This document shows positions 1-47,844 of a stretch of DNA of 49,556 nucleotides, piece by piece. Numbering within the stretch: the stretch's first letter is position 1; each line of letters begins with the position of its first letter. A program made the translations under genes and the position numbers. Under the pieces are notes generated by a model, which was given only the letters and a program-made list of their open reading frames with translations, had not been told where the DNA came from and ran no database searches. The DNA is from Myxococcales bacterium (GTDB lineage: Bacteria > Myxococcota_A > Polyangia > Polyangiales > Houyiibacteriaceae): NCBI GenBank assembly GCA_024640845.1, contig JAHEEE010000024.1:1-49556 (forward strand), given 5' to 3'.

Positions 1-492
1 CAGCGGAAGGCCGCCGCGGGTGGCGGGCTCGAAGGTCCACGTCTGAACCGCCTCGACCGCGGCAGCATCAAAATCGGATCCCGCGGAGTGCTCGACCACG
101 ATATCGGTGACTTTGGCGTCGACAGTGATGGTGACTAGCAGGATCACCGTCGGGTGCAGGCCCGAGCCTTCACGGCCCGGAGGGAAGACAGGCGGCGGCG
201 AATCGACGAGGTGCGGTGGATGAAGATCAGCGTCAGCGTCAGCGTCAGCGCCAGCGCCAGCGTCGGCGTCAGCGCCAGCGTCCGCGTCGGCGTCAGCGCC
301 AGCGTCAGCGTCCGCGCCAGCGTCCGCGTCGGCGTCCGCGTCCGCGTCGGCGTCCGCGCCAGCGTCCGCGTCGGCGCCAGCGTCGGCGTCAGCGTCCCGC
401 ACCGGCCCCTGTGCGTAGCTCCGCCCTCCCACCCAGAGCAGCAGTACCCCGAGCGCGATCGCGCATATCTTTCCTCTACGATTCCCTTTCAC
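1..492 (-). CDS. TonB-domain protein, N-terminal part (runs off left edge)
   Basis: The gene starts at a GTG at 492-490, with GGCAGGAG just upstream and two in-frame TGA codons right before it, so no earlier start is possible. The first ~30 residues are a signal peptide (KGNRRGK, a Leu/Val-rich core, then SYAQ). About 57 residues of Asp-Ala/Gly-Ala repeat follow. After that comes a typical TonB C-terminal domain opening ([13 protein letters not shown], then [13 protein letters not shown] and [17 protein letters not shown]). That domain normally contacts TonB boxes or energises outer-membrane receptors. In Myxococcota it is often found at the N-terminus of a TonB-dependent receptor; the cut edge prevents telling whether a plug and barrel follow. 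It lies 58 bases after a His-rich secreted protein on the same strand, which suggests metal uptake (inference). Confidence 0.85.
226..396 (-). repeat. Hexamer-based Asp-Ala/Gly-Ala coding repeat
   Basis: About 171 bases of degenerate GTCAGC/GTCCGC/GCCAGC hexamers. Read on the minus strand in the TonB-domain frame they encode a ~57-residue acidic linker of DA and GA dipeptides between the signal peptide and the TonB domain. The opposite strand reads as Arg-Gln or Ser-Val repeats, which are artefacts. A very similar repeat lies in the kinase gene at 42737-42817. Confidence 0.85.
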
Positions 493-28133: not shown

Positions 28134-29259
28134 CAGCTGCCGCGCCGAGCCACTCTTGCATGGCCTCGACGTACGCAGGCGCACTGTGGTGCGATGCGAG
28201 GTATGTCGATGCTCGTTCAACGAGGCGATTCGCTGCTTCCGGATCGCGGAGCAGGCGCACCGCTTCGAGCGCGATTGCTTCAGAATCGTCATTCGGGACG
28301 ACGGCACAGCTATCTGCGATCGGCAGCGCTGCGGAGGCCCGCTCCATCGCGACGACCGGCACTCTTCGCGAGAAGGCGTCCAACATCTTGATCGGGAGAC
28401 CGCCTTCCGTGCGCCGTGGGACCCAAGCAAGGTCCGCAGCCCCGTGGACGCACATGCGGAGGCGCTCCGAGCTGAGCCCACGGAAATCCAAGGCGTTGGC
28501 GACGCCGCGAACGCTTGCAGCTCGCTGGGCCGCTCCGGTGTCCGATTCGGTCGCGACCAGAAGCCGAGCCTTTCCTTCCACGCGGCGCAGCTTCGCCAGA
28601 GCGTCGAGCAGATGCTCCCATCCTTGGTAGCGATCGAGGTTGCCGGCGTAGAGGCAGATCCTCGCATCGGCCGGCAGATCGAGAGCAGCACGCGCGGCGT
28701 CTTTCGGCACGCGCGCGACCGAGGCCGGCCAGGGGACCGGGACGTAGTGTGCGCCCTGAAGCAGGCTGGCGAGCGATGGTGCGACGGCCGCAACGCGAGC
28801 AGCGCGCGCGCAGACCCAGTGCTCGGCTGCGCGCCCGATCGCGTTCACCGCCGAACGAGGCAGCCTCGGAAAGTAGACGGGCAGCTCGTGGGAGAGAGAC
28901 GTGTGTGCGAGGTAGTACACCGGCGCGACGTTCGCGACGATGGAGGTCAGCGCAGCCTCGATGTGGTGCGCGACAATCGCCTTCGGTCGCAGGCGCCGAG
29001 CGAGGGCTCGTATCGACGCGACGAAGCGCGCATCGAGGGCGACCTTGCCCCAGGACGGGCCGGATCGAAGAGAGCGAACTTTCGGGAAATCCGGCGTTCG
29101 ATGCACCTCGTAGGGTGCGTCGAGCGCGTATGCGCCGTGTGCGTAGGTGAGGAGATGGGCTGGGTGCGCAGACGTCGACCAAGCCCGCAGCATCGCATCG
29201 ACGGCAGCCTGCGTGCCTTGGTGGCTCGGGAATGGCAGGCATGCGACGTGCAAAATCAT
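28066..29259 (-). CDS. Group 1 (GT4-like) glycosyltransferase
   Basis: A 397-residue GT-B-fold glycosyltransferase. The N-terminal half begins MILHVACLPFPSHQG; the C-terminal half carries RICLYAGNLDRYQGWEHLL, LLVATES, ADLAWVPRRTEGGLPIKMLDAFSRRVPVVA, where the Glu/Gly-rich donor-binding loop of GT4 enzymes lies. Substrates cannot be inferred. The ATG at 29259 overlaps the stop of the upstream alkaline-phosphatase-like gene (ATGA). The C-terminal ~20 codons overlap the Nudix gene on the other strand and read as a Pro/Ala/His/Arg tail, so the tail may be recently acquired. Confidence 0.9.
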   Translation of the reverse strand: MILHVACLPFPSHQGTQAAVDAMLRAWSTSAHPAHLLTYAHGAYALDAPYEVHRTPDFPKVRSLRSGPSWGKVALDARFVASIRALARRLRPKAIVAHHIEAALTSIVANVAPVYYLAHTSLSHELPVYFPRLPRSAVNAIGRAAEHWVCARAARVAAVAPSLASLLQGAHYVPVPWPASVARVPKDAARAALDLPADARICLYAGNLDRYQGWEHLLDALAKLRRVEGKARLLVATESDTGAAQRAASVRGVANALDFRGLSSERLRMCVHGAADLAWVPRRTEGGLPIKMLDAFSRRVPVVAMERASAALPIADSCAVVPNDDSEAIALEAVRLLRDPEAANRLVERASTYLASHHSAPAYVEAMQEWLGAAAATPTGARRHAPHPRAAPGLQAR

Positions 29260-30920
29260 TCGATGTAGCCAAGAGCGCGCAGCCGCGCTTCAACGCGCGC
29301 GCCGTTGGGACGCATGCGGCGGCGGGCCTCGGTGACCGGGGGCAGCGGCCGCGACCTGATGACATCCGTTTCCTCGAGCGCCTCCCAAAGGACGCGACCT
29401 GCAAACGAGGTCGGTACCGAGAGACCCAGGCGTTCAAGCAGCGTTGCGCTCAAATCCGCAATATGCGCGTCGATCCTCCCGGCAGCTCGAATACTCGGCC
29501 CCCCGAGGGCCATGAAGCCATGCGAGCGATGGCTTCCAGGAAGGCTTCGACCCTTTTTGCCGAGATACTCGTCTTCAGAGAGCCGCCGGAAGGATTGCGT
29601 TTGCTTGCCGCTTGGCATGAGGTTGTAGGAGTAGCCCGCGTCGAGCTCGAGCTCGACGAGGAGGTCCGGCGCGCGGTCCACGTGTGGCCCGTCGAAGAGA
29701 TCTTCCCTCGGGATGATGTCTCGAAAGACCCGGTTGCCGGTCCAGGGATCGCGCGTGCCGAGGAGCGCCGCGCGCACACGAAGCGCAGTGTCACGCATTT
29801 CCTCACGCGGTACGATGCCATTCGGTTCGCGTCCTTTGACGTTCAGATGGATGCCGGGGAAGTAGTTGAGCTCGTCGCTGAATGCGATGGTCTCTGCCAT
29901 ATCGATGGCGCCGAAGCGTACACTCGATTCAAGACGGCTCGGGAGCCACGCATTGCCGAGGCGAAAAATTCGCTCTCGCAAACGCGGCGGCAAACCACGA
30001 AGGGCCAGCTCCTTCAATTTGGCCGCGCTGTCCCCGCGCTTCGTTCGGAAGCGCAGGAGACCCTGATCGGCGAGAAGCCGATTGAGGTGCAACACCTTGT
30101 CGGAGGATCCGCCAGATCCGTGGTCGCTCAGTACGGTCACCTCGGTTTCCGCGCCGCTCGCGTCGAGGAGCGTGCCCACCGATTGGTCGAGCGCTCGGTA
30201 GACGCGGCGGAGCCCATCGCGCGCCGCGGCTGTGACGTGTTCGGGCCGACGCGGCGACTCGGGATCATGATGGGCCCATAGGTAGTGGGACGCAGTGTCG
30301 CTTTCCCCGAAGTACACAGCGAAGACATCCCAATCCTCGCGGTCGAGCAGCCAACGGGCCCACCCGGTCTTGCGAAGGGCACGGCGCTCCAGCGCTGCCG
30401 GCAATCGATCGACCCATCCGGGCTCGTCGGCGTGGAACTCGTCCACGTCGTCGAAGGTCGGGGGGCCGAACTCACGCAACGTCTGGTCGTAGAGCGACGG
30501 TGGCCACATGAACGAGCGGTCGGCTTCGAACGCCACGGGCGCATCCCAACCGCTGACGAACACACCGTGCTCTAGCTCTTCGGGCGGCCACGTCGCGGGA
30601 AAGCTCAGACAAGCGCAGCGAAGACTGAGCGCGTCGAGTTGCTTGAAGATGGTTGGCGCCTCGCGCACCGTCCCCGCCGTGAATCGCACCTGGTATCCGT
30701 TGCGCGTCGTGAAATCGAAGACGCCGTGTCGCGCGGGGTCGAGCCCGGTCAGAAACGTGGTCCAGTTCGGCAGCGTCGCCGGCGGCTGCACCGACTCGAG
30801 GGCGGCGTACGCTCCGCGCTCCATCAGGGAATGGAGATTGGGGAGCGGATGCGGACCGAGCTGCTGGACGACTCCGAGATCGAGACCGTCGAGACCAATG
30901 ACCAGTGCGCGTGCCGACAC
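29256..30920 (-). CDS. Alkaline phosphatase superfamily (nucleotide pyrophosphatase/phosphodiesterase-like) protein 1
   Basis: A 554-residue metal-dependent phospho-transferase-fold protein. Metal ligands and nucleophile are visible: VIGLDGLDLG near the start, Thr in LPNWTTFLTG, GESDTASHYLWAH, LSDHGSGG and HRSHGFMALGG. No signal peptide, so apparently cytosolic. GTG at 30920 begins directly with SARALVIGLDG. Superfamily members hydrolyse phosphate mono- or diesters; the exact activity is open. Overlap with the glycosyltransferase start shows the two are translated together, suggesting glycan or glycolipid phosphate processing (inference). Confidence 0.9.
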   Translation of the reverse strand: MSARALVIGLDGLDLGVVQQLGPHPLPNLHSLMERGAYAALESVQPPATLPNWTTFLTGLDPARHGVFDFTTRNGYQVRFTAGTVREAPTIFKQLDALSLRCACLSFPATWPPEELEHGVFVSGWDAPVAFEADRSFMWPPSLYDQTLREFGPPTFDDVDEFHADEPGWVDRLPAALERRALRKTGWARWLLDREDWDVFAVYFGESDTASHYLWAHHDPESPRRPEHVTAAARDGLRRVYRALDQSVGTLLDASGAETEVTVLSDHGSGGSSDKVLHLNRLLADQGLLRFRTKRGDSAAKLKELALRGLPPRLRERIFRLGNAWLPSRLESSVRFGAIDMAETIAFSDELNYFPGIHLNVKGREPNGIVPREEMRDTALRVRAALLGTRDPWTGNRVFRDIIPREDLFDGPHVDRAPDLLVELELDAGYSYNLMPSGKQTQSFRRLSEDEYLGKKGRSLPGSHRSHGFMALGGPSIRAAGRIDAHIADLSATLLERLGLSVPTSFAGRVLWEALEETDVIRSRPLPPVTEARRRMRPNGARVEARLRALGYIE

Positions 30921-31021
30921 GTGGGCAGGCTAGCACCGTCCTGACGCTGAGCTCCATACGCGAGTGGCGTCGGGAGGTTTGTTTACAACCACCCGCCCGG
31001 ACGCCTTCGGCGGCTGTTGGT

Positions 31022-31150
31022 CCCGCCCCACCGCCCCCACACTATCTCCTACCCCCGCCCGTAGTCCTCCCTCCGCGCCCCTTGCTTCGCTCGGGCTTGG
31101 CGGCGCTTCGCGCCGGGCTTCGCCGTTCCGGCTCGCGCTGCCGCGCATGA
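31022..31150 (-). repeat. GAA-loop hairpin repeat, copy 1
   Basis: Reverse-strand copy of the element also present at 47449-47565 and 47605-47712. On the plus strand, stems are GCCC/GGGC (31077-31080 with 31093-31096), CGGCGC/GCGCCG around TTC (31101-31115) and GCCG/CGGC around TTC (31122-31132). The first and third differ in sequence from the other copies but keep pairing. It ends in a C-rich (minus-strand G-rich) tract. Confidence 0.8.
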
Positions 31151-31176
31151 CTTGGTGGGGCCCTCGCGTTTACTCA

Positions 31177-31293
31177 GGAGAATCGGTCGGGATGCGCGGC
31201 ACAGGGAGTGGGCGGGAGGCAAGTTGTATTCCGCCGTGTGTCGACGGCCGAGCGGGCCCCGCTCCCGAGCACGTGCGTCGCGACCGATTCTCC
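31177..31293 (-). ncRNA. Candidate structured RNA or MITE-like long hairpin
   Basis: GGAGAATCGGTCG at 31177-31189 has a perfect reverse complement at 31281-31293. The pairing continues inward with one mismatch and two G-U wobbles to 31198/31272, giving a ~22-bp stem. A second stem pairs 31204-31212 with 31258-31266. The nested layout argues against chance. It lies 52 bases downstream of the second phosphatase-like gene. No target-site duplication is visible at the ends, so a mobile element is not demonstrated. Confidence 0.5.
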
Positions 31294-31344
31294 GATCCGT
31301 GAACCGGCGCACCATTCGAGGGTGTTCGCTAGCGCCAACGCAGC

Positions 31345-32718
31345 CTACCTCGACCAATCCCTTCCCAAAATCCCCGGGGGCCTCTCCACTCCGAACAGCC
31401 CGAGCACGGTCGGCGTGATGTCGTAGATCTCGGCCCCCTCGACCCTTCCTCTGCGCGTGACTTTTCCACCGCTCATGATGAAGATGCCATTCCACCCGTG
31501 GTTGCAGCCGTCGGGTCCGGTGTCGTTCTCCGTGAGGACCCTCCGGCCCGTACCGACCGACCCGATCGCGCGGAGCTTGAGGTCGTCGAAGTACACCATG
31601 AGGTCGGGCGGAAACCCGCGGGTCTGGAGGTAGTATTCCTGTGGGACACGGACTTGAACCGGGATGGGCGCGCCATCGTCATCGTGCAGCGCTTCGAGAT
31701 CCTTCCGCAGCCCTGCGCGCAGCGCTGCGACCTTGGCGCCGGGAATGATGCCAGCCGGCTCGCGGCCGGCGACGTTGAAGAAGACCCGCGCGTAGTAGCC
31801 CCCTTCCGCCCATGCCTTCGTGCGACCCCAATCGATCTCGTCGTGGCTCAAACGCCCGGTTTGCTCAATCGGCTTCCGAAGGGCCAGGTAGCCTCGCTCG
31901 ATCAGCCAGTCGTTGATGCAGAAGCCCCCGTGCATCGCGCGCGCTCCGTGATCGCTGACGACCAGTACGACCGAGTCGTCGTCGAGACCCGCGCAGAGCC
32001 TGCCGATGTGGTCGTCGAGCCGCGCGTAGTAGTCGCGCCCAAGGCCCTCGAACGAATTGCCGCTCTCGTGCCTCGGGTGTTCGGGATCGATGTAGCGCCA
32101 AAACGCGTGATGAAACCGATCGACCCCGATCTCGACCATCATCATGAAGTCCGGCTCGTGTTCGTTCCAGATGAAGCGCGCGATCTCGAAGTGCTGTTCG
32201 GTCATCGCCACGATGTCTCGATAAATCCGATCGAGGTCGTCCGACCGAAAGTCATCGACGTCTGCTTGATACCGGCCGAATCGTCCTTCGAGATCGGCTT
32301 CGAGCCCGCGAGGGAAGCACCAGGGCTCGTCGCCGCCTGGGTACAGGAAGCCCGACACCAGCTGTCCGCGAACCGGGGTCGGCGGGAAGGTGAGCGGAAC
32401 GAACAACGGAGCCACGCGAAGGCCCTGCTCGCCCAGCCAATCCCACAGACGCTTCACGCGCACGTCTGCACCGGTAGCCAAGCGAAGCCCCGTCTCACCC
32501 ACGATGCGGTTTCTGAAGCCGTAGAGCCCGAGCTCGCCGGCGTCGCGGCCGCTCACCATACATGTCCATGCGGGCACGGTAATCGGCGGCTCGGAGCTTC
32601 GCATCGGGCCCCAAGTTCCCTGGTCCATCAGCCGGGCGACATTCGGCATCGAGCCCAGATAACGACCGAACACGAGCTCAGGCGCCGCACAGTCGAGCCC
32701 GATCACCACCACTCTCAC
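31345..32718 (-). CDS. Alkaline phosphatase superfamily protein 2
   Basis: A 457-residue relative of the gene at 29256, in the same superfamily. Visible residues: VVVIGLDCAAPEL at the start, Thr in TVPAWTCMVSG, EIGVDRFHHAFWRYID, VVSDHGARAMHGG and CNHGWNGIFIMSG. The start is GTG 32718, four bases after the stop of the hybrid kinase; the upstream extension of the frame runs into that gene. No signal peptide. Substrate unknown; the family includes phosphoglycerol transferases and phosphodiesterases acting on lipids and glycans. Placement directly behind a kinase gene implies coexpression. Confidence 0.9.
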   Translation of the reverse strand: MRVVVIGLDCAAPELVFGRYLGSMPNVARLMDQGTWGPMRSSEPPITVPAWTCMVSGRDAGELGLYGFRNRIVGETGLRLATGADVRVKRLWDWLGEQGLRVAPLFVPLTFPPTPVRGQLVSGFLYPGGDEPWCFPRGLEADLEGRFGRYQADVDDFRSDDLDRIYRDIVAMTEQHFEIARFIWNEHEPDFMMMVEIGVDRFHHAFWRYIDPEHPRHESGNSFEGLGRDYYARLDDHIGRLCAGLDDDSVVLVVSDHGARAMHGGFCINDWLIERGYLALRKPIEQTGRLSHDEIDWGRTKAWAEGGYYARVFFNVAGREPAGIIPGAKVAALRAGLRKDLEALHDDDGAPIPVQVRVPQEYYLQTRGFPPDLMVYFDDLKLRAIGSVGTGRRVLTENDTGPDGCNHGWNGIFIMSGGKVTRRGRVEGAEIYDITPTVLGLFGVERPPGILGRDWSR

Positions 32719-32722
32719 ATGA

Positions 32723-34357
32723 TCACCGAGGGTTGATGAGGTCGGCGGCTTCGTAGATGGTTCGCTCGAGGTGACCCAGCTCGAAAGGCTTTTCAATTCG
32801 GAGGTTTGGGACGCTTTCGAGGAAGTCCCTGGCGCGCTGGGTAAACGCGCCGCCCGTCATGAAGACGATGCGGTCGTTCATCGGCGTCGCCCGCTGCAGG
32901 GCAGCTCGGTAGACGTCCATGCCTGTCATCTCGGGCATGATGAGGTCGCAGAGAATGACATCGTAGGCGTTCTCCCCCATAAGCGCGACCGCCTCCCGGC
33001 CGTCGCTTGCCGTCGTGACGTCGTGATCGACGAGCGCCTTTTGGATCAAGCGCGCGATCACCGGCTCGTCATCGACGACTAGGATCGACAGGGTCCCGCC
33101 GGCTGCACGCCGGATCGCGCTGATGGATGGAGGCGGCACCGTCAGCGGACGCTGCGCGCGCGTCGCCTTCGGGAGAACGACACGCGCGACCGTGCCCTGC
33201 CCGGGGTGGCTCTGAATTTCGATCGTTCCTTCGAGCGAGTGCACGATGCGTCTGCAAATCGAAAGCCCGAGCCCCGTACCGCGGCCGGCGGGCTTCGTCG
33301 TCACGAAGGGATCGAAGATCCGCCTCAGAAGCTGCGGCGAGATCCCGGGTCCGGTGTCCTGGACCTCGATGCACACTTGGTTCTTTTCGGTGCTCCGCGC
33401 GCGAATCGTGATTGTATTCTGTGCTTTGTCGCCGGGCTCGATCGCTTGAGCGGCGTTGACGATCAGGTTCAGGAACACCTGGTTCACGCGCGTCCTCGAT
33501 CCACGAGCATAGAGCCTGCCTTCTTCGTACTCGCGAACGACGTTGGCGCGGTGCTGGATCTCGGGCTGCGCGATTCGGATCGCCGAGTCGAGCGCCTGCT
33601 TGAGATTCACCGTCTCGACCTCTGCACCGTCGCCTCCATGCGATAAAAGACCGATTTCACTCGATATTATGCGGATCCTTTCGGCCCCCTCGTACGCTTC
33701 TTCGAGGAGCTCGGCGGCCTCGGCGGGGATGGACTCTGCCCCTTTCCGAAGCGTGCGCAGATGGTTCCACACGAACGTGAGAGGGTTCTTGATCTCGTGA
33801 ATGATGCTTGCGGTGAGCGTCCCGATGGCGCTCATCCGCTCCGCAAGGAGGAGACGTTGCTGCAACTCGTGCTCCGCGGTCATGTCGACGACCGAGACGA
33901 TGGCGCGCTCGAATCGGCCCTCGCTGCTCGGCAAGAAGCGCCAGTGAACACGAACATCTCGCGGCTCGCGCGCACAGGTCATGATCGCGGTTTCGACGTG
34001 CACGTCGCGTTCGTTTCGGAACGCTGCCATCAGCACCCGCAGGAAGTCCGCTTTCGATTCTGCGGTCAAGAGCTCGGATGATCGACGGACGCACTCTTCC
34101 TCGCTTGCAGCGCCGACCAACGAGACAGCGCCTCCGCTAACCCGGCGGACTCGCGTCCGGTGGAGGCACTTCGTCAGAGCTTCCGGGTCTTTGCGCACGA
34201 GCTGCTTGAACTCGTCGGCGTCGCTGCACCCCTGCGCCTCGATCCAGGCCAGTGTCTCTCGGAAGTCGAGGTCCCAAAGCGCTGCCGGCAGTACATCCCA
34301 AACACGGTCATCGTGCTCGGGCGCGGGGGCCTCGGACTGGGGGATGAGACGCACCAT
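32723..34357 (-). CDS. PAS-type hybrid histidine kinase with C-terminal receiver
   Basis: A 544-residue cytosolic kinase. Residues ~20-165 form a PAS-like sensor (ending VSVVDMTAEHELQQR); the kinase domain carries His187 in ASIIHEIKNPLT, the N-box NLIVNAAQAIEPG, QDTGPGI, FDPFVTTKPAGRGTGLGL; the receiver has VVDDEPV, Asp471 in LCDLIMPEMTG and Lys in IEKPFE. No DNA-binding output is present, so the receiver probably passes phosphate on. ATG 34357 is chosen over a TTG 39 bases upstream. It precedes phosphatase-like gene 2 by four bases. Domain logic matches the kinase at 1090, but the sensor differs. Confidence 0.93.
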   Translation of the reverse strand: MVRLIPQSEAPAPEHDDRVWDVLPAALWDLDFRETLAWIEAQGCSDADEFKQLVRKDPEALTKCLHRTRVRRVSGGAVSLVGAASEEECVRRSSELLTAESKADFLRVLMAAFRNERDVHVETAIMTCAREPRDVRVHWRFLPSSEGRFERAIVSVVDMTAEHELQQRLLLAERMSAIGTLTASIIHEIKNPLTFVWNHLRTLRKGAESIPAEAAELLEEAYEGAERIRIISSEIGLLSHGGDGAEVETVNLKQALDSAIRIAQPEIQHRANVVREYEEGRLYARGSRTRVNQVFLNLIVNAAQAIEPGDKAQNTITIRARSTEKNQVCIEVQDTGPGISPQLLRRIFDPFVTTKPAGRGTGLGLSICRRIVHSLEGTIEIQSHPGQGTVARVVLPKATRAQRPLTVPPPSISAIRRAAGGTLSILVVDDEPVIARLIQKALVDHDVTTASDGREAVALMGENAYDVILCDLIMPEMTGMDVYRAALQRATPMNDRIVFMTGGAFTQRARDFLESVPNLRIEKPFELGHLERTIYEAADLINPR

Positions 34358-42545: not shown

Positions 42546-43762
42546 CCCCCGTCAGGCCGCGCATCCTGCAACTGCGCGCGCAGCTCTTCGATGTCCGGGC
42601 TGCTCGGATCGAAGCGAGCGGCTGCATCGAGCGCTGCGCTCGCCGCACCGAAATCGCCGTTCTCGAGCGCCTCGCGCGCGCGCGCGAGCTCGTCCTTTGC
42701 GGCCTCCTCCCGTTCATGTGGGGAGAGCACGGCGGACCCAGCATCAGCGCCGGCGTCAGCGCCGGCGTCAGCGCCAGTGTTCGCGCCCGCGTCAGCGTTC
42801 GCGCCCGCGTCAGTGTTGGCAGCGTCGCACTGCTCGATTGCCACCCAAAGCGCCACCAGGATTCCCAGAGTCAGGACCATCATGAAAGGCAGGCCTTTTC
42901 GTTTACGCGCGGGCTTGGCCGGCTTTCGACCGTCGTACGCCTCCCGTAGAGCCGAAACGAAAGTGCGCGCGCTCGCGTAGCGGCTCGCAGGCTTCTTCTC
43001 CAGAGCTCTCAAGATCGCGGTGTCCACAGTCGACGGGATTCTCGCGGCGCGATTGGCTTCGCTTGGCGGAACAGGACGTCCGTTCATCACCTCATGAGCG
43101 ACCGCGATCGCTTCCGTCCCTGGGAACGCGCGTTCGCCGCTCGCAGCCTCGTACATTACCGCACCGAATGAAAACAAGTCGCTCTGCTCGCTGTACTCGC
43201 CCTTGCTAAGCGTCTCGGGCGCCGAGTAGCAGGGTGTCCCGAGGAACTGACCCTCCTTCGTCAGGTCGGCATTGGGGACACGGGCGATTCCGAAATCAGC
43301 GAGCTTCACTTGCCCGTTTTCCGTGATCAGCAGGTTCTCCGGCTTCAAGTCGCGGTGGATGACCCCTGCCATGTGCGCGGTCGCGAGTGCGTCGCCGACT
43401 TGCCTTGCCACCTCGAGCAAACGCTTCTCTGCGAGGGGCCCGCCCTTTTTGAGCTCGTCTTTGAGCGTGTGACCTCGAACGTATTCGAACACGAGGTAGG
43501 GGCCGACCTGCGGATCGTCACCAACATCGAATATCTGAACGATATTGGGATGATGCAGGCGCGCTGCCGCCCGCGCCTCGTTCTGGAATCGGCCGAGAAA
43601 GACCTTCCGCATCTCTTCGTCCAACACCAGGTCGCGCAGCGTCTTCACCGCCACCGGCCGATCGAGGTCGGCATCGTGCGCGAGATAAACGTTGCCCATG
43701 GAGCCGGACCCGAGAAGCCTCTCGATTCGGTAACGACCGATCTGTTTTGGCAGGTCCACCAT
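42542..43762 (-). CDS. Membrane-anchored Ser/Thr protein kinase (Pkn type)
   Basis: A 406-residue eukaryotic-like kinase. The kinase domain (~10-270) has the Gly-rich loop LGSGSMGNVY, VAVKTL, HRDLKPENLL, DFGIARV and APE, so it looks active. One membrane segment (MMVLTLGILVALWVAI, ~295-312) is followed by a 27-residue Asp/Ala/Asn/Gly linker and a C-terminal helical segment (EEAAKDELARAREALENGDFGAASAAL) that may be a partial TPR. Location would be the inner membrane with the tail outside. It lies 32 bases downstream of pyruvate kinase, and its stop overlaps the small lipoprotein stop. Confidence 0.94.
   Translation of the reverse strand: MVDLPKQIGRYRIERLLGSGSMGNVYLAHDADLDRPVAVKTLRDLVLDEEMRKVFLGRFQNEARAAARLHHPNIVQIFDVGDDPQVGPYLVFEYVRGHTLKDELKKGGPLAEKRLLEVARQVGDALATAHMAGVIHRDLKPENLLITENGQVKLADFGIARVPNADLTKEGQFLGTPCYSAPETLSKGEYSEQSDLFSFGAVMYEAASGERAFPGTEAIAVAHEVMNGRPVPPSEANRAARIPSTVDTAILRALEKKPASRYASARTFVSALREAYDGRKPAKPARKRKGLPFMMVLTLGILVALWVAIEQCDAANTDAGANADAGANTGADAGADAGADAGSAVLSPHEREEAAKDELARAREALENGDFGAASAALDAAARFDPSSPDIEELRAQLQDARPDGG
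42737..42817 (-). repeat. Asp-Ala/Gly-Ala coding repeat in the kinase gene
   Basis: Eighty-one bases of GTCAGCGCCGGC-type repeats, coding on the minus strand for ~27 residues of DAGA/GADA between the membrane segment and the C-terminal domain. Composition matches the repeat in the TonB-domain gene (226-396). Confidence 0.8.
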
Positions 43763-47148: not shown

Positions 47149-47161
47149 ACCGCAGGTCTAC
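47145..47161 (+). terminator. Hairpin over the kinase stop codon
   Basis: GTAGACC, GCA, GGTCTAC: a perfect 7-bp stem with 3-base loop that includes the TAG stop at 47146-47148. There is no T tract, so it may only stabilise the 3' end. Confidence 0.4.
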
Positions 47162-47361
47162 GCTGGCACGCGGGACGCCCGGGCGGCGAGGTGCACACGG
47201 GTCTCGGAAGAACGCGATAGGGGTTTCACGGGACGGGCGGCCTGCAGATGCGGCCTCGTAGGACTGGGAGGGTCAGGCCGCGCACGCCGCCCTCGGACGG
47301 CGCGCCAATCGCGGTGGTTGCTGTCTTGCGATTGGCACTTCGTACGCCCGCTCCAACCCCC

Positions 47362-47415
47362 ATCACGTTTTTCCGAGCCCCTTATGAACGACTCTTTGCG
47401 AAAGAAGGGCTGCGA
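47362..47415 (+). repeat. Hairpin family 2, copy A
   Basis: Begins ATCACGTTT and ends in GGGCTGCG, like the copy at 47732. The enclosed stem is AGCCC (47376-47380) with GGGCT (47407-47411), and an inner TCTTT/AAAGA stem around GCG (47393-47405). Confidence 0.55.
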
Positions 47416-47448
47416 CGGTGTGTGCACGCGGAAGACCCAGTTCTCAAG

Positions 47449-47565
47449 ACATGCGCGGCAGCGCGAGCCCGAAGGGCGAAGCCCGGCGCGCATGCGCCGC
47501 CAAGCACGAGCGAAGCGAGGTGCGCGGAGGGAGGACTACGCGGTGGGGGTGGGTGGGTCGGATGT
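47449..47565 (+). repeat. GAA-loop hairpin repeat, copy 2
   Basis: Stems: GCCC-GAA-GGGC (47467-47477), CGGCGC/GCGCCG with a GCAT loop (47484-47499), GCAC/GTGC (47504-47523). Ends in a G-rich tract with four or more runs of three G. Copies 1 and 2 also share about 20 bases 5' of the first stem. Confidence 0.8.
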
Positions 47566-47604
47566 AATTAAACCAAACCAGCTCACCGACCACCCTCCAG
47601 ACAG

Positions 47605-47712
47605 CAACCCGCGAGCCCGAAGGGCGAAGCCCGGCGCGAAGCGCCGCCAAGCACAAGCGAAGCGAGGTGCGCGGAGGGAGGATTACGGGTGGGGGTGGGC
47701 GGGTCGGATCTA
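47605..47712 (+). repeat. GAA-loop hairpin repeat, copy 3
   Basis: Stems: GCCC-GAA-GGGC (47615-47625), CGGCGC-GAA-GCGCCG (47632-47646), GCAC/GTGC (47651-47670). Followed by GCGGAGGGAGGATTACG and a G-rich tract as in copy 2. Confidence 0.8.
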
Positions 47713-47731
47713 AGAAAACCTCCCGACGCCA

Positions 47732-47780
47732 ATCACGTTTCGCGGACCCCGTAAAGTGACTTCGTCACCACGGGGCTGCG
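47732..47780 (+). repeat. Hairpin family 2, copy B
   Basis: ATCACGTTT, then CCCCGT (47747-47752), GTGAC-TTC-GTCAC (47756-47768) and ACGGGG (47770-47775), then GGGCTGCG. The frame matches copy A while the stem sequence differs. Confidence 0.55.
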
Positions 47781-47844
47781 CGCCGAAGGCCCGTGGGCGA
47801 TGCGAAGCATCGGCTTTCCGGGCTGACGCCAGCTTCATGCCCCC

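Follow-up and report, generated by a model that had tools for sequence, protein, structure and literature searches.

What kind of element is a short intergenic repeat whose hairpins change their bases on both arms and keep their pairing? The question is raised by a 49,556-nt contig (C121; this whole stretch is referred to as the window) of a 4.14 Mb Myxococcota MAG (G000; GCA_024640845.1; the own genome), in which a sequence-only reading had reported three copies of such a repeat, at 31022–31150 on the minus strand and at 47449–47565 and 47605–47712 on the plus strand. All three copies were found there. The arms reported for stem 1 (GCCG/CGGC in copy 1, GCCC/GGGC in copies 2 and 3) and stem 3 (GCCC/GGGC in copy 1, GCAC/GTGC in copies 2 and 3) were confirmed, as were the invariant stem 2 (CGGCGC/GCGCCG, with a GAA or GCAT loop) and the G-rich tract after each copy. 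A covariance model (R1) was built on an alignment of 89 core copies, and the conserved core, named core C, was placed in the window as follows.

31058–31148, minus strand: core C, copy 1 (covariance model, 94.8 bits; alignment A1)
47451–47542, plus strand: core C, copy 2 (covariance model, 101.7 bits)
47597–47689, plus strand: core C, copy 3 (covariance model, 91.2 bits; direct repeats D2 and D9)

Copy 3 is a direct tandem repeat lying 147–148 nt after copy 2, and its conserved part begins at 47610. The consensus of the 89 aligned copies consists of three hairpins within about 90 nt. In copy 1, stems 1 and 2 read GCCG-GAA-CGGC and CGGCGC-GAA-GCGCCG, and stem 3 reads CC-AA-GCCC ... GGGC-GC-GG. 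Over 18 pairs, 99.1% of stem cells are paired, compared to 88% in column shuffles, and sliding the partners along the 89-copy alignment cuts pairing to at most 44.7%. Cells changed on both sides number 129, against 41 expected from the shuffles (the cells count sequences, not independent events), so the claim that both arms changed with pairing kept holds across the 89 copies. In a larger set of 158 core copies, 99% of stem positions are paired. Five pairs of alignment columns covary, in stem 1 (22/26) and stem 3 (54/85, 60/80, 61/79, and 62/78), and the covariation holds both in relatives alone (108 distinct copies) and in the own genome alone (50).

The perfectly paired types of stem 3 are CCC/GGG, GCA/TGC, CGC/GCG, GCG/CGC, CAC/GTG, and GCC/GGC. 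The commoner ones occur together with either state at the remaining covarying pairs, giving 16 haplotypes, and this free combination indicates that changes recur or that copies recombine. Little variation is seen in stem 2 or at the base of stem 1; some copies were retrieved with a search pattern in which much of stem 1 and of the 5' arm of stem 2 is specified in advance. Stem 3 contains an AA/GC 2x2 internal loop in 88 of the 89 copies. In most copies, stems 1 and 3 are capped by GNA apical loops closed by G-C, and the 7-mer GCGNAGC is present at least once in all 89 copies and at least twice in 74, while being absent from 86% of shuffles. Single copies folded with standard DNA energy parameters were not more stable than shuffles, and the consensus structure was not recovered from them.

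The repeat first seen as a three-copy element is real, but the flagged 110 nt are only one module, core C, inside a larger composite (up to about 600 nt), with repeated sequence reaching about 350 nt upstream of the core. Module order and orientation are fixed: S, then A or the left part of A with B, then K, then C with its G-rich tail, h, and T. Core C is often doubled in direct tandem, the second about 150 nt on, and D sometimes follows T. A BLAST architecture scan mapped 43 clusters in the own genome, mostly S-A-K-(C-G)1-2-T or S-Al-B-C-G-T. The window composites and their parts are listed below.

30958–31294, minus strand: composite 1, B-C-G-h-T
30958–31013, minus strand: end modules h (CCGCCGAAGGCGTCCGGGCGGGTGG) and T (AACCTCCCGACGCC) of copy 1 (architecture map, sequence)
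31014–31066, minus strand: G-rich tail of copy 1 (sequence)
31177–31293, minus strand: module B, a hairpin of about 117 nt (inverted repeat I7, architecture map)
47170–47830, plus strand: composite 2, S-A-K-C-G-C-G-T-D
47170–47197, plus strand: start module S of the second composite, GGACGCCCGGGCG(T/G)CGAGGTGCACA (consensus, architecture)
47198–47381, plus strand: module A, a branched hairpin of about 185 nt (alignment A5, pair counts)
47382–47448, plus strand: linker K, from module A to the core (consensus, architecture)
47530–47573, plus strand: G-rich tail of copy 2 (GGTGGGGGTGGGTGGGTCGG) and TAATTAAACC (sequence)
47676–47740, plus strand: G-rich tail of copy 3 and end module T (AACCTCCCGACGCCAATCACGTT) (sequence, architecture)
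47741–47830, plus strand: module D (CCCCGTAAAGTGACTTCGTCACCACGGGGC...) (architecture map)

Module A is closed by an inverted repeat of about 25 nt (CGGGTCTCGGAAGAACGCGATAGGGG / CCCCCATCACGTTTTTCCGAGCCCC), has about 40 copies in the own genome, and covaries across copies in a branched fold (alignment A5). It is also found without the core, for example in G001, a genome that lacks C. Module B lies directly upstream of copy 1, has inverted ends (GGAGAATCGGTCG / CGACCGATTCTCC), and has about 11 further long matches in the own genome. Module D is a separate dispersed hairpin repeat of about 78 nt that follows some composites, sometimes in tandem, with further sites at G000:C96 and L017 1069–1500. 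The modules appear to be separate families that join in various combinations. At two loci of G001 (L278 and L279), module A is followed by an apparent inverted module B. A canonical motif for a potential G-quadruplex is present in 101 of 151 family tails, compared to a mean of 6.3 in shuffled tails, and in several composites the tail can alternatively pair with a downstream C-rich stretch. Arrays of 6-nt units (CAGCGT / CGGCGT / CCGCGT) were observed at window positions 203–430 and 42690–42833, and similar arrays occur beside several element copies.

An open reading frame crosses some composites and a small protein was considered, but coding is not conserved: the frame shifts from copy to copy with loop length (3 or 4 nt) and further one-base indels. 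An integron attC site was set aside by eye, with no core-site motif seen.

We searched the own genome and its relatives to establish the size and range of the family. At least 49 BLAST matches to the flagged element were identified in the own genome, and the covariance model returned 82 core matches at E < 0.01, a count that is a lower bound because many contigs end inside repeats. Module A or the core was seen at the ends of contigs C2, C35, C97, C99, C112, C115, C126, C128, C142, and others; contig ends of this kind indicate that the repeats break the assembly and that copy numbers are undercounted. The same model found the core in 15 of the 19 genomes of the genus, that is, in the own genome and 14 further species, with no core match in four congeners (G001, G008, G016, and G018). 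Across the order, the 15 positive genomes out of 184 all belong to this one genus (0 of 165 in other genera), and among 379 genomes drawn from the phylum there is a single weak match outside the genus (33 bits). The element-bearing MAGs are labelled Myxococcales, Polyangiaceae, or Deltaproteobacteria. A phage or plasmid origin was rejected, as an exact-pattern search of viral contigs (IMG/VR) and a BLAST search of plasmids (PLSDB) both gave zero matches. Rfam gave nothing credible at gathering or relaxed thresholds.

Genes were predicted with a frame-based finder, and the baseline consisted of element-free intergenes at least 60 nt long. The 79 element-bearing intergenes comprise 42 convergent, 32 tandem, and 5 divergent arrangements, compared to 20, 26, and 15 in the baseline. 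Enrichment between convergent genes is modest on this small baseline (P value = 0.017), and divergent arrangements are depleted (P value = 0.003). Copies do not fall equally in coding genes: they are intergenic, with 11 overlapping predicted genes, and the overlaps inspected are mostly at uncertain start codons. Placement between convergent genes fits insertion where it is least harmful. Copies had been described as lying in sense orientation downstream of a gene, which is correct for copies 1 and 2 but does not apply generally, as tandem-gene sites have 13 sense and 19 antisense copies. The proposal of a 3'-end regulatory module is unsupported, since orientation to tandem genes is symmetric and placement fits least-harm insertion. 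Copy 1 is flanked by two minus-strand PF01663 genes (29256–30920 and 31345–32796; type I phosphodiesterase / nucleotide pyrophosphatase).

The second window composite (47149–47844) lies between a histidine kinase and uvrC (Pfam). In eight relatives, the kinase and uvrC stop codons are about 0–130 nt apart, compared to about 700 nt in the own genome. The uvrC site is thus empty in nearly all relatives examined, indicating that the composite was gained. No target-site duplication is definable at this site, where the intergenic stretch of the relatives is too diverged. Certain intergenes carry the element in two species, in several cases with opposite orientations, a pattern consistent with tolerant sites being used more than once.

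If a structure is kept in RNA, G·U should be accepted on that RNA's strand; if a palindrome is kept in DNA, the two strands should be treated alike. The 158 core copies contain 9 G·U cells and 6 A·C cells; in the control, RNase P RNA from this genus, the counts are 126 and 6, respectively (P value = 0.0003). The comparison is limited in that short GC-rich core stems may not tolerate wobble and in that each cell stands for a sequence and not for an independent event. Cells changed on one side and on both sides number 5 and 243 in the core, and 49 and 18 in RNase P. GNA loops give DNA mini-hairpins exceptional stability, with a Tm of 78 °C for d(GCGAAGC) (PMC4686876). The lack of a G·U excess over A·C, together with the GNA apical loops, favours core hairpins kept as folded single-stranded DNA, with an RNA role less likely. 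The sequence-only reading had left RNA and single-stranded DNA side by side; the kept structure stands, and of the two the DNA form is the one favoured. Module A has 28 A·C and 8 G·U cells. On the opposite strand this lean amounts to a G·U excess, and an RNA of that strand is a possibility for module A. Comparing G·U and A·C counts, with RNase P as a yardstick, gives a strand-symmetric test that helps separate DNA-level from RNA-level conservation of hairpins. A further caution is that strong covariation in an intergenic repeat does not by itself prove a functional RNA.

We consider it probable that core C is the central module of a composite, modular, non-autonomous BOX/REP-like repeat that folds as single-stranded DNA and is restricted to the genus. 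Composites were gained in intergenic spaces, mostly between convergent genes. The hairpins would be kept for a role as folded single-stranded DNA, either on the lagging strand or in the course of transfer, and a putative trans-acting enzyme would recognize this form, as in the E. coli REP/TnpA-REP system. Template switching between hairpin arms probably helps to keep the arms perfect, and any effects on neighboring transcripts would be side effects. A more tentative proposal is that the family represents a new class of mobile repeat acting as single-stranded DNA, with a multi-hairpin BOX-like build, GNA mini-hairpins and a REP-type AA/GC mismatch that together mark it for a putative recombinase or transposase of the genus, and arms renewed by template switching.

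Several candidates for a mobilizing enzyme were evaluated. The own genome has one RAYT-like Y1 transposase gene (L213 1456–2112, on G000:C81; PF01797, with NF047646 below cut-off), with neither a core copy nor a palindrome beside it. None of 20 PF01797 loci across the genus has a credible core copy. RAYT/IS200 transposases are present in 13 of the 19 genomes of the genus, and no REP-transposase-like gene was detected in the (incomplete) assemblies of several genomes rich in copies. This transposase was rejected as the mobilizer because it is not linked to copies and its presence does not track theirs. Recurrent neighbor proteins were also rejected, the largest neighbor families looking by eye like ordinary household genes. 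No autonomous partner with A-type ends was identified in the own genome, where all paired A ends are about 160 nt apart and none are at insertion-sequence distance.

The near absence of one-sided intermediates in the core would also arise if the repeats were inert and under no structural selection, with arm-to-arm template switching during replication making paired changes in single steps. Template switching has been proposed as both the creator and the maintainer of hairpins (PMC8794818), DNA-stable GNA loops would promote switching between arms, and the 16 haplotypes point to recurring or recombining changes. Arm copying, however, gives no explanation for loops, an AA/GC mismatch, and linker bases that are conserved like the stems; copying across the mismatch would erase it; and there is scarcely any variation in stem 2 or at the base of stem 1. 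Mutational upkeep of inert repeats is an unlikely account of the family, and the more than 100 diverged copies provide a natural set in which to ask whether selection or template switching lies behind compensatory changes.

Movement of the composite by an ordinary double-stranded DNA transposase, as an insertion-sequence MITE with the inverted ends of A or B, has comparably poor prospects. Modules A and B are both bounded by inverted ends, can be found where the core is missing, and adjoin or replace each other, and empty sites exist. Against this, the spacing of paired A ends in the own genome does not match an insertion sequence, no recurrent transposase adjoins the copies, no target-site duplication was definable at the diverged uvrC site, and the core, which also occurs alone, lacks a terminal inverted repeat. 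Least probable is a structured RNA, with the core (and module A) transcribed as a 3'-end stabilizer, terminator, or small RNA and its stems kept for the RNA fold, since the strong covariation, conserved loops, sense position of two window copies, and precedent of BOX repeats, which are transcribed (PMC3049150), are set against the G·U and A·C counts of the core and module A, the symmetric orientation at tandem genes, the lack of an Rfam family above threshold, and a copy number that varies down to absence in four congeners.

The preferred reading, a modular repeat folding as single-stranded DNA, was compared to known repeat systems; our literature search turned up no comparable family described from the phylum. 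MITEs such as Correia elements and RUP are likewise non-autonomous, hairpin-forming, and dispersed, but the whole composite has no terminal inverted repeat, no target-site duplication was definable, and no partner insertion sequence was found. CGTC-tagged REPs without a dedicated transposase (PMC3733652) are also high-copy palindromes with no linked transposase, but are single palindromes of 20–40 nt bearing the CGTC tag.

The suggestion of a REP-like element is supported by dispersed, intergenic, double-changed hairpins and the AA/GC mismatch in stem 3. Stems of E. coli REPs have a conserved AA-GC mismatch that is required by TnpA-REP (PMC8266576), and REP/BIME elements with TnpA-REP (RAYT) share with this family high-copy intergenic hairpins, the mismatch, and mosaics with other modules (PMC8266576, PMC2817692). 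The family differs in its core of about 90 nt with three hairpins, where a REP is a short palindrome (20–50 nt), in its direct and not inverted doublets, and in a RAYT-like gene that is not flanked by copies. Neither a GTAG nor a CGTC tetranucleotide is found beside any stem in the 89-copy consensus. The shared mismatch is a small-motif resemblance to REP and no proof of common descent.

Compared to the BOX repeats of Streptococcus pneumoniae (boxA-boxB(n)-boxC; PMC3049150), the family has other modules in another phylum, is G+C-rich with a G-tract, matches no Rfam family, and covaries without wobble intermediates. The ends of BOX are similar to those of an insertion sequence, and for the composite no such insertion sequence was found. 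The likenesses are ordered modules with the middle module in direct tandem, strong secondary structure, intergenic position, enrichment between convergent genes (reported for pneumococcal BOX and other small repeats; PMC3049150), companion repeats, and occurrence in few related species. Ordered modules with a variable, directly repeated middle module, which define a BOX-type repeat, are found in the 43 own-genome clusters. The family thereby unites marks of two kinds of repeat, the modular build of BOX and the mismatch of REP.
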